This document shows, one piece after another, positions 11,975-29,204 of a stretch of DNA of 38,517 bases (positions within the stretch are counted from its first letter, which is position 1; the number at the start of each line of letters is the position of its first letter). The stretch spans positions 1 through 38,517 of the forward strand of contig JAGHTW010000155.1 in the NCBI GenBank assembly GCA_018065145.1. The letters are read 5' to 3'. The translations under genes were made by a program, and so were the position numbers. The notes below the pieces were generated by a model. That model did no database searches, had not been told where the DNA came from, and was given only the letters and a program-made list of their open reading frames with translations. Source of the DNA: Candidatus Prevotella equi. Its GTDB lineage: Bacteria > Bacteroidota > Bacteroidia > Bacteroidales > Bacteroidaceae.

Positions 11975-12002
11975 AGGGGCAGTGTAAAAACTGCCCTTTT
12001 TT
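11975..12002 (+). terminator. Rho-independent terminator
   Basis: AGGGGCAG-tgtaaaaa-CTGCCCTTTTTT. Confidence 0.85.
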
Positions 12003-12007
12003 GCGTT

Positions 12008-12046
12008 AAAGGTGCATACTTTTTGGATTTTTGCTTGATGTAAAAT
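12008..12046 (+). promoter_or_regulatory. Putative phage promoter, copy 2 (25-bp box + 8 nt + TAAAAT)
   Basis: AAAGGTGCATACTTTTTGGATTTTT-gcttgatg-TAAAAT; matches copy 1 at 1561. Confidence 0.7.
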
Positions 12047-12128
12047 AAAAGGGTGGAGCAATCCACATCATCTTGTGTCCTTCTTTCGGATTGGATTGTT
12101 ATTTCTGTACTCGGCGGAAATAGCATGA

Positions 12129-12207
12129 CGCAGTTTAGTTTAGGCTGGTTAAGAGCGCTGTAATCAAAAGATATGCAGAGACGCATGTTCAAATCATGCA
12201 ACTGCGC
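12129..12207 (+). ncRNA. tRNA-like cloverleaf in the leader of the scaffold/capsid genes
   Basis: Acceptor CGCAGTT/AACTGCG (7 bp), D-arm GTTT-AGGCTGGTTAA-GAGC, anticodon stem CTGTA/TGCAG with 11-nt loop ATCAAAAGATA, T-arm GCATG-TTCAAAT-CATGC (5 bp, TTCAAAT loop). No encoded CCA. Confidence 0.55.
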
Positions 12208-12295
12208 TTTGGCAGATATGCCTTAAATATCAAATCATAAACAATTCATGGTGGACGCGGTTACACACCTAAAACAACCTAAAATGGAGGAAATT

Positions 12296-12892
12296 ATGAA
12301 AACAGACGAACTGAAAGAAAAAGGACTCACAGAGGAACAGATTGCATTTGTAATGGCAGAAAACGGCAAGGATATCGGAAAAGTGCAGAAAAAGCTTGAC
12401 GATATGACTGCTGAAAGAGACAAGGAAGCAACCAGAGCAACGACTGCAGAGGAAACTTTGAAGAAGTTTGAGGGTGTGGACGTTGAGGCCATTAAAAAAG
12501 ATCTTGCAGACTGGAAGACAAAGGCAGAAAAGGCCGAAAGCGATTATGCAGCTAAGATTGCAGAGAGAGACTTTGACGACATGATCAAAGATGCAATTTC
12601 CAGTGCAAACGGACTTAATGCAAAGGCAATCAAAGCACTTTTGGATACAGATGCGCTGAAGGCATCCAAGAACCAGAAGGAAGATGTAGCAGCGGCAATT
12701 AAAGCCCTGAGCGAAGCTGAAGACAGTAAAATGTTGTTTAAGCAGCCTGAGGCAAAAGCGCCTGCGAAATTCACATCTACCAGCACAGGAAGTGCAACAG
12801 GTGGAAATGTAACAAAGGAATCTATTATGGCTATTAAGGATCGCGGTGAGAGACTTCAGGCAATCTCACAGCATAAAGATCTTTTCCAGTAA
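12296..12892 (+). CDS. Scaffold protein (Phage minor structural GP20-like)
   Basis: Coiled-coil protein immediately before MCP; ATG 12296 with atggagga RBS. Confidence 0.8.
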   Translation: MKTDELKEKGLTEEQIAFVMAENGKDIGKVQKKLDDMTAERDKEATRATTAEETLKKFEGVDVEAIKKDLADWKTKAEKAESDYAAKIAERDFDDMIKDAISSANGLNAKAIKALLDTDALKASKNQKEDVAAAIKALSEAEDSKMLFKQPEAKAPAKFTSTSTGSATGGNVTKESIMAIKDRGERLQAISQHKDLFQ

Positions 12893-12964: not shown

Positions 12965-13858
12965 ATGGCAAATGAAGTTTTAAAGACAGCAGAAAACAAC
13001 CTTATCAAAAATGCCGATCTTGCAACCGTAAGACAGATTGATTTTGTATCAAGATTCGGATATTCAACCAAGAAACTCATGGAGCTTCTGGGTGTAACCA
13101 GAATGATCCCCAAGCAGGCAGGCACTGTACTTAAGAGACATACCGTAACTGGTTCTCTTGTAAGTGGCGCAGTTGCAGAGGGTGATATCATTCCTCTTTC
13201 AAAGTACAGCACCGCTGATGTTCCTATTGGTGAAATCACCCTGAACAAGTGGCGCAAGGCTACATCTGCAGAGGCAATTCTTGACAAGGGATTCGATCAG
13301 GCAGTAGGCGAGACCACTGACAAGATGCTTCAGGATATCCAGAATGGAATTAAGGCAGATCTTATTTCCTCACTTACCATCTCTGGCCAGCCTACAGCAA
13401 CTGGTGAAGGTACTCAGGCAGCACTTGCAAACGCATGGGGCAAGCTTGCAAATATCTTTGAGAATGATTCAGTAGAACTTGTATTCTTTATGAATCCTCT
13501 TGATATCGCTGATTATCTTGGCAAGGCAGCAATCACTGTACAGAATGCATTCGGATTCCAGTACGTTGAGAACTTCCTCGGCCTTGGCACTGTTGTTATG
13601 AACAGCGCAATTACTGCTGGTACTTTCTTTGCAACTGCAAAGGAAAACATTGTTGCTTACTATGTTCCTGCAAATGAGAGCGATCTTGCAAAGGCATTTG
13701 ACTTCACATCTGATGAGACTGGCCTTATTGCTATCCATGAGTATGCAGACTACGACAGACTGACTGCAGATGATACCGTTCTTTCTGGTATCAAGGTATT
13801 TGCAGACATGACTGCAGGCGTTATCAAGGGTACAATCACTGCTCCTCTGGGGGAATAG
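12965..13858 (+). CDS. Major capsid protein
   Basis: 297 aa after scaffold; sequence and position typical of HK97-fold MCPs; RBS ggaggataaaaact. Confidence 0.85.
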   Translation: MANEVLKTAENNLIKNADLATVRQIDFVSRFGYSTKKLMELLGVTRMIPKQAGTVLKRHTVTGSLVSGAVAEGDIIPLSKYSTADVPIGEITLNKWRKATSAEAILDKGFDQAVGETTDKMLQDIQNGIKADLISSLTISGQPTATGEGTQAALANAWGKLANIFENDSVELVFFMNPLDIADYLGKAAITVQNAFGFQYVENFLGLGTVVMNSAITAGTFFATAKENIVAYYVPANESDLAKAFDFTSDETGLIAIHEYADYDRLTADDTVLSGIKVFADMTAGVIKGTITAPLGE

Positions 13859-27660: not shown

Positions 27661-28989
27661 TTAGACAAATTTAATTCCATCAATCTCGCCGCTGGCATTT
27701 ACGTCGATTTCCCTTACAATGTTCTGCCAGAATAGTTTTCTGTTTTCTTTTGTAAGCTCATCGTATATCTCTTTCCAGTTTCCAAACACAACACTGGTAG
27801 CTGCAACTTTTCTTTCCACAAGCTGATCAGACAGAGAAGCAATTTCTTTTTGAATTGCTCTGATCTTTTTGTCGTATTCGTCAATGTCAAGTCTTCCCAT
27901 TTCATACAGGTGATCCAGACGTTTCATTGCTTGCTCCAGATCCTCTATGCTTTTAGTTTTCTTTTTCTTTTCGCTGGTTGTTAATGAAGATATTTTCGCT
28001 GTGTAGGAATCCAGATACAGCCTGATGTTGCTGATCATTGTTTCCTCCAGATACTGTTCACCAACTGCAAAATGTTTGTGGAGTCCCTTTGTGCCACTAG
28101 GGCAGCGGTAATAAATATACGTCTTGCCTCGCATGGTGTTTTTGTTTGCAGCAAGCCTAGATCCGCAAATAGGGCACTTGATCATGCCAGTATACAGATA
28201 ATGTAGTCCAGACGGCGCAGCCTTTATGCAGTTTAAGGATCTCACCCTCTGCATGTATTCTTCAGTGAAATATGGTTCACAAAAGCTGTCGTTTTCTCTG
28301 ACGCGGCCTATGTATAAATCAGAGTTGATCATTGCCTGCAGCATTCTGAGAGTAAAATCAGGATCGTAAGTTTCCCTTACCCATTTTGCAGTGCCATTTT
28401 TGTTTTTGCTAAGTAGGAGATGCTCAAAGATTGCGCGCGTTTCCTCTTCCTTGTCGTGGACAATTCTTTTGTATCCATCAATCTTTTCGATTTTGAATCC
28501 AAAGCGCGGCAGTTTCCCAGTGTAGGCCAGTCCGTGAGATATTTTGAAGCGGTGCATATCTTTGTATCGCTCAGATGTGAGCGCCCATTCAAGCTCCGCC
28601 ATTGCGGCCATTTGATACATAAAATTCCTGCCGTATGGTGTTGATGTATCAATCTGCTGACTGACAGAGACAAGACTGCTGCCAGATTCCTCGATATCGT
28701 GGAATATATTGCAAAAGTCCCTCATATTACGCGCTATTCTGTCATAACGCATAATTACAACCAGATCAATCTTGTGTAACTTCACATCATTCATCATGCG
28801 CAGGAAATCTTTTCTATATTTCATAGAATGGCCTGTGAATCCATAATCTGCATCATAGAGTGTAAGCTCATAATTCCCTGCGCCATATTTTCCATCCAGA
28901 TATGAAGTGCAGTTATAAACCTGCGCCTCCATACTGTCTGAGTCTTTTTTCTCTTTCGATTTTCTAGGATAAATCGCTGCTCTTATCAT
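27661..28989 (-). CDS. Serine recombinase (integrase)
   Basis: MIRAAIYPRKSKEKKDSDSMEAQ... resolvase catalytic domain, Zn-ribbon CPICGSRL, coiled coil; start at 28989 is the likely one. Confidence 0.9.
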   Translation of the reverse strand: MIRAAIYPRKSKEKKDSDSMEAQVYNCTSYLDGKYGAGNYELTLYDADYGFTGHSMKYRKDFLRMMNDVKLHKIDLVVIMRYDRIARNMRDFCNIFHDIEESGSSLVSVSQQIDTSTPYGRNFMYQMAAMAELEWALTSERYKDMHRFKISHGLAYTGKLPRFGFKIEKIDGYKRIVHDKEEETRAIFEHLLLSKNKNGTAKWVRETYDPDFTLRMLQAMINSDLYIGRVRENDSFCEPYFTEEYMQRVRSLNCIKAAPSGLHYLYTGMIKCPICGSRLAANKNTMRGKTYIYYRCPSGTKGLHKHFAVGEQYLEETMISNIRLYLDSYTAKISSLTTSEKKKKTKSIEDLEQAMKRLDHLYEMGRLDIDEYDKKIRAIQKEIASLSDQLVERKVAATSVVFGNWKEIYDELTKENRKLFWQNIVREIDVNASGEIDGIKFV

Positions 28990-29204
28990 CTTTTCACTTC
29001 CCAAGATCTTCCGCAATCGTTGCATGTAGCAGTAGTAATCATTATAACTTTTTCTTTTCTACGGCGTACAAGCATCCACAAAAGCCAGAGGCCTCCAGTA
29101 ATACAGATCATAAAAAGATTCCACAAAAAGGATCTTCTCACGCTCTTTACAACAGCACTGGTTGTACAGTTTACATTCTCACTTCCACATTTTACACATT
29201 TCAT
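28986..29204 (-). CDS. Zinc-ribbon plus transmembrane small protein
   Basis: CVKCGS...FLWNLFMICITGGLWLLWMLV...CNDCGRSW; 4-bp overlap with recombinase start. Confidence 0.65.
   Translation of the reverse strand: MKCVKCGSENVNCTTSAVVKSVRRSFLWNLFMICITGGLWLLWMLVRRRKEKVIMITTATCNDCGRSWEVKR

Follow-up and report, generated by a model that had tools for sequence, protein, structure and literature searches.

The window, that is, the whole stretch of 38,517 nucleotides analysed here, carries a tRNA-like element in the leader of a phage capsid operon. The features at this locus are:

11975-11998, + strand: terminator-like hairpin and T-run that closes the upstream operon (consensus scan; 2 found versus 0.3 expected in shuffles)
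11997-12046, + strand: copy 2 of a promoter-like repeat, a 50-nt direct repeat of 1550-1599, 80% identical
12129-12207, + strand: tRNA-like element with acceptor, D-arm, extended anticodon hairpin, T-arm and discriminator C12207 (ARAGORN, RF00005, covarying relatives)
12208-12210, + strand: UUU where CCA would stand, directly 3' of the discriminator
12211-12279, + strand: GP20-b-like leader with hairpin GGCA-GATA-TGCC at 12211-12222 and hairpin GGTG...CACC at 12250-12269
12286-12290, + strand: Shine-Dalgarno sequence GGAGG of the scaffold gene, read from the sequence
12296-12892, + strand: capsid scaffold gene, PF06810, 198 aa (Pfam 105.9 bits, cut-off 35)
12965-13858, + strand: probable major capsid protein gene, 297 aa (position after the scaffold gene; relatives in viral contigs; no Pfam match)

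The element lies, as the earlier note had placed it, between putative promoter copy 2 and the scaffold gene, with the repeat at 11997-12046 before it and the PF06810 gene starting at 12296. Both copies of the repeat end in TAtAAT/TAaAAT-like letters (a TAWAAT end) and share the block GGTGCRTACTTTTTGGATTTTT. With one copy before the structural operon and one before the scaffold gene, the repeat is probably a phage late promoter, and the scaffold/capsid transcript probably starts just after 11997-12046. A phage integration site (attP) was set aside as an account of the element, given that the recombinase gene at 27661-29025 lies 15 kb off. No relative of the window's capsid protein turns up among 100 kin genomes of the bin, and the relatives that it does have belong to phages of Clostridia; the contig (G000:C236) may therefore be misbinned or a recent arrival, and its bacterial host is uncertain.

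By reading the sequence, every arm of a cloverleaf could be located within the 79 nt at 12129-12207 (+):

12129-12135, + strand: acceptor 5' strand CGCAGTT, paired with AACTGCG at 12200-12206 in 7 Watson-Crick pairs
12158-12178, + strand: anticodon arm, extended hairpin CTGTA-ATC-AAAA-GAT-A-TGCAG with no usable anticodon (constrained fold, window and L132)
12183-12199, + strand: T-arm GCATG-TTCAAAT-CATGC, perfect, with a consensus T-loop (sequence; RF00005 alignment)

The D-arm (GTTT 12138-12141 / GAGC 12153-12156) is weak, with two G-U pairs and GG in its loop; the anticodon stem CTGTA 12158-12162 / TGCAG 12174-12178 encloses 11 nt; and the discriminator C12207 is followed by TTTGG, so that CCA is not encoded. 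The acceptor, the D-arm with GG, the anticodon stem with its 11-nt loop, the T-arm and the missing CCA are all found where the earlier note had them. The extended stem with an AAAA loop that it offered as an alternative gains support from constrained folds of the window and of a relative, L132, which has AATC-AAAA-GATT plus A at the same site; on these folds the '11-nt loop' is better read as an extended hairpin ATC-AAAA-GAT with a bulged A. On either reading, 11 nt or a 4-nt AAAA on an extended stem, the loop is not the 7-nt anticodon loop of a decoding tRNA gene.

ARAGORN reports the element as the sole tRNA of the window. The tRNA covariance model RF00005, proposed earlier as a check, recognizes a tRNA fold with 39.2 bits (E 6e-7), over its gathering score of 29, in a local scan with permissive filters; a fast Rfam scan of the whole window misses the element. 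Its folding energy is unremarkable (z -1.46) and, since thermodynamic stability alone is ordinary, the evidence for the element lies in the tRNA-specific pattern and its conservation. In total, the structure is well supported.

Given that only 2/393 genomes of the window's own order contain PF06810 above cut-off, recurrence was analysed in metagenomic viral contigs. These were sampled by their scaffold gene, and coverage of other loci is confined to the flanks of the fetched loci and three long sequences (the window, FP_Lugh and Montmirail). The closest relatives by major capsid protein identity, L003 (80%) and L004 (78%), have a cloverleaf at the matching position with largely different sequence (in L004 by eye and scan), and ARAGORN finds no element in the capsid protein relatives L005-L021. 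For 35 of 138 distinct leaders of PF06810-type genes, ARAGORN predicts a tRNA on the sense strand no more than 300 nt from the scaffold start; in the 541 kb of those same loci it predicts just 1 other. A custom score for a T-arm directly adjoining a 7-bp acceptor is at or above its threshold of 34 in 39/138 leaders, versus 0/690 dinucleotide shuffles, 0/138 antisense leaders and 0/138 downstream coding stretches. The distances from element to start codon fall mainly around 50-58 or 80-94 nt. When 29 members are used to build a covariance model, 387 kb of sequence yields 24 matches. Each is on the sense strand and precedes the scaffold gene, and a few (e.g. one in L236 and one in L098) lie farther upstream than the main slot; the window, itself in the training set, scores 44.8 bits.

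Grouping scaffold proteins at 70% similarity, the element is present in 30/86 clusters and, because about two thirds of the sampled PF06810-type clusters are without a recognised one, it is not essential to the operon. It is present in the named Faecalibacterium phage FP_Lugh and Blautia phage Montmirail, unannotated in both, and, in a RAGATH-21 form, in Dulem virus 35; it is absent from Listeria A118, Clostridioides AR1075-1 and Ruminococcus RG-TP1. The window element belongs to a family that occurs ahead of PF06810-type scaffold genes in many phages, whose hosts are apparently gut and rumen Clostridia.

The arms of these elements are kept by compensatory changes. When the 29 elements are aligned, 94.0% of pair cells are standard-paired, versus 65.0% with partners shuffled (0 of 500) and 39-45% when slid, and 20/21 pairs have double-sided changes. 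The D helix (98.3% paired) and the anticodon helix (92.1%) are conserved in this way and neither is used by the acceptor/T-arm scan. Part of this signal is expected for any set of tRNAs, and the key is its persistence in members that are unable to decode. The compensatory changes that the earlier note had asked for are thus found, in related as well as distant phages and at the same pre-scaffold site, and with an anticodon arm that is not in decoding form they bear out its claim that the element is a mimic and not a decoding tRNA. The conserved position, the compensatory changes and an anticodon arm that has left the decoding form together rule out a lone decayed tRNA as a general explanation.

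The anticodon arm is the most variable part of the element and is expendable. Its loop has 4 nt in L250 and L255, which are otherwise perfect tRNAs, 5 nt in MT839772 and 8 nt in L003, L024 and L037; L239 has no anticodon arm, and the slot of Montmirail, a phage with two ordinary tRNAs elsewhere in its genome, contains a 51-nt form with one internal hairpin. Other members (FP_Lugh, L103, L267, L310) look intact. L103 is 88% identical to a Lachnospiraceae tRNA-Met with initiator marks (C1:A72, GGG:CCC), the nearest host tRNA of L236/L244 is tRNA-Gln, and the element in the FP_Lugh scaffold leader (L313:586-661, phage positions 20075-20150), the only ARAGORN tRNA of that genome, is tRNA-Trp-like and encodes CCA. 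Because these nearest host tRNAs differ, the slot was probably filled more than once, by repeated capture of host tRNAs. The elements with 7-nt loops (L029-L031, L078-L106, L116, L126) mostly have CAU or CCU, complementary to AUG or to the Shine-Dalgarno sequence, and the L029 loop UUCAUAC is the full complement of its scaffold start GUAUGAA; this complementarity may be no more than a legacy of tRNA-Arg or initiator tRNA ancestry, from which it is inseparable.

Directly downstream of the element in several relatives lies GP20-b (RF03003), a cis-regulatory RNA before the same scaffold gene that differs from the tRNA-like fold in being a separate pair of hairpins; the GP20 motifs were reportedly described in a 2017 paper. 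Many relatives pass the RF03003 model, with up to 62.9 bits, between element and Shine-Dalgarno sequence. GP20-b is weak in the window, where 12210-12281 scores 18.4 bits, below the gathering score of 36.2 and hence outside the family. By eye, GP20-b in the window and in group C relatives resembles tandem H-type pseudoknots with loops that pair just downstream; in the window possible pairings are with 12228-12231 and 12276-12279 (GATA:TATC, GGTT:AACC), and relatives have apparent compensatory loop changes (GCCA:TGGC, CCCAC:GTGGG, TGCAC:GTGCA). A crude pseudoknot test of the downstream hairpins gave 0.72 versus 0.62 for shuffled loops, which is not clearly better.

RAGATH-21 (RF03097) is found in or just upstream of the slot:

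L316:645-721, RAGATH-21
L237:1322-1408, RAGATH-21
L243:1334-1407, RAGATH-21
L236:832-918, RAGATH-21
L309:371-459, RAGATH-21

It fills the slot in Dulem virus 35, L237 and L243, and its threshold of 70.3 bits is passed by L316, L237, L236 and L309; L236 and MT839772 have a tRNA-like element in the slot and RAGATH-21 farther upstream. RAGATH-21 has a long closing stem, a T-arm-like hairpin against the 3' strand of this stem and U's after it. It shares the slot and the combination of T-arm-like hairpin and long stem with the element and differs in its interior, and the window has no match to it in a fast or a permissive Rfam scan. Because of the T-arm-like hairpin and the U-rich 3' flank, RAGATH-21 may be a derived tRNA mimic. 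Forty loci with leaders lacking an ARAGORN tRNA contain no other Rfam structure (e.g. self-cleaving ribozymes) besides GP20-b and RAGATH-21. In leaders without the element (e.g. L118, L158, L043) a terminator-like hairpin with a T-run often sits at the slot position.

The 3' flank was analysed in 52 elements, a set from which the doubtful or low-scoring L265, L281, L283, L301 and L307 had been removed by eye and which includes the RAGATH-21 occupants L237 and L316 and a few weak members (e.g. L263). A U is present at +1 or +2 after the discriminator in 51/52 elements (46 at +1), versus a frequency of 0.38 at adjacent positions further downstream, and this U-rich flank is partly shared ancestry within groups; counted once per element cluster, the proportion is 29/30 (p about 1e-11). 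CCA is absent in 51/52, and FP_Lugh is both the sole CCA-encoding element and the sole exception to the U. The next hairpin starts 0-10 nt past the discriminator across elements and 3 nt past it in the window.

Bacillus subtilis RNase Z accepts precursors that lack CCA, and a U no more than 2 nt from the discriminator stimulates it about 200-fold (PMC10100781); CCA is an anti-determinant for RNase Z (PMC4919913). The window element has the features described there for a Bacillus-type substrate: an acceptor/T-arm, no CCA and C12207-UUU (PMC10100781, PMC4919913). RNase Z is encoded in the window's bin, and most tRNAs of this bin and of a Lachnospiraceae genome are without CCA. On the 5' side, the window has the acceptor/T-arm stack and an unpaired -1 (A-1, C73), and cutting by RNase P would be plausible; across the family, -1 and 73 are pairable in 28/52 elements versus 22.9 expected, slightly above expectation, so that the unpaired -1 preferred by RNase P is not enriched, which does not favour precise cutting by this enzyme. 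RNase P was the enzyme named first in the earlier note; because the elements lack CCA and have a U within 2 nt of the discriminator, RNase Z fits the 3' flank better. The note's idea that the element sets the 5' end of the mRNA agrees with the anatomy of the locus.

Combining these data, we consider it reasonably probable that the element is a tRNA mimic in the 5' leader that is cut by host RNase Z, and perhaps by RNase P, and in that way defines the 5' end of the scaffold/capsid mRNA. In this model, (i) the part that is kept is the top half of a tRNA, the acceptor stacked on the T-arm, usually with the D-arm, which is the half that tRNA end-trimming enzymes recognise, and the anticodon is dispensable, (ii) host RNase Z is predicted to cut past the discriminator at 12207/12208, with a possible RNase P cut predicted at 12128/12129, (iii) the resulting capsid mRNA would begin with UUU followed by the GP20-type hairpin leader, and (iv) this structured 5'-phosphate end would slow 5'-to-3' decay and give a uniform, well translated mRNA. 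The data directly support the structure, its covariation and fixed position, the lost decoding features, the missing CCA, a 3' flank rich in U and a closely spaced next hairpin. From these features of the sequence we infer cleavage, the identity of the enzyme and the effect on stability or translation. The CCA encoded by FP_Lugh speaks against the RNase Z model. More tentatively, and at slightly less than an even chance in our judgement, phages of Clostridia would have repeatedly captured host tRNA genes into this slot, where decoding was lost and cutting by RNase Z, perhaps with RNase P, became the sole role, and RAGATH-21 would be another occupant doing the same job.

Alternatively, the mimic may act uncut, as a landing pad or roadblock in the mRNA that alters translation or stability by way of a tRNA-binding protein, a T-loop modification enzyme, the ribosome or a block to the 5' exonuclease RNase J. 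The same conservation data and the close coupling to GP20-type hairpins before the Shine-Dalgarno sequence would fit; but this idea, which we consider unlikely, explains neither the U after the discriminator and the absent CCA nor why intact tRNAs of different origin should serve equally well. The intact-looking members, that is, the FP_Lugh tRNA-Trp with its CCA, L103, L267 and L310, are what would be expected if the elements were phage tRNA genes supplementing host decoding, with a decayed or divergent copy in the window. We regard this as less likely still, given that many members have loops of 4, 5, 8 or 11 nt or no anticodon arm and yet keep the acceptor and T-arm with compensatory changes, and that Montmirail has its ordinary tRNAs elsewhere and the 51-nt mimic in the slot.

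Terminator-like hairpins with a T-run occur in 71/94 leaders that lack the element and in 19/44 that have it (p 0.0005, scored by a simple home-made scan). The element could then stand in for such a hairpin and serve chiefly to keep the upstream and capsid mRNAs apart, through cutting or structure, rather than to tune the capsid mRNA. This is in our view very improbable, as the terminator-like hairpin and the promoter-like repeat upstream of the element in the window already provide the separation, and the home-made scan is itself a weak point of the argument. The ordinary folding energy would be compatible with a chance fold without function; against the RF00005 score, the recurrence in leaders, the absence of control matches, the covariation and model matches that are all sense and all upstream, its probability is negligible.

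Mimicry of tRNA by viruses is known. The tRNA-like structures at the 3' ends of plant RNA viruses (e.g. TYMV), many of which are aminoacylated, recruit tRNA enzymes; they form the 3' terminus, whereas the phage element is internal, without CCA and part of a dsDNA phage mRNA leader. The tRNA-miRNA-encoding RNAs of murine gammaherpesvirus 68 have a tRNA-like part with hairpins close behind it and are cut by tRNase Z; they differ in being noncoding polymerase III transcripts of an animal virus that release pre-miRNAs, whereas the phage element lies at the 5' end of an mRNA. Non-tRNA RNAs are also cut by RNase P, among them E. coli polycistronic operons, T4 gene 32 and phage C4 RNA (PMC11143913), but these substrates are isolated and mostly without a full cloverleaf, in contrast to a full tRNA fold that recurs at one gene position. 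With tRNA itself (RF00005) the window element shares the cloverleaf, the T-loop consensus, the 7-bp acceptor and a score over the gathering threshold, and it differs in having neither a usable anticodon loop nor CCA and in lying inside an mRNA leader. A literature search, with most subscription papers outside its reach, found no description of GP20-a/b, RAGATH-21 or tRNA-like phage mRNA leaders, and what appears new is a tRNA mimic that is conserved as a module of capsid mRNAs in dsDNA phages.

The element is a caution against taking every tRNA predicted in a phage genome for a tRNA, and it suggests a role for the orphan RNA RAGATH-21. If the model is true, a tRNA fold at one site of the capsid operon would be a general, unannotated phage strategy across dozens of lineages, and it would explain, in a form open to test, how these phages fix the amount and the 5' end of their most abundant structural mRNA. 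The isolated phages FP_Lugh and Montmirail make this model directly testable.
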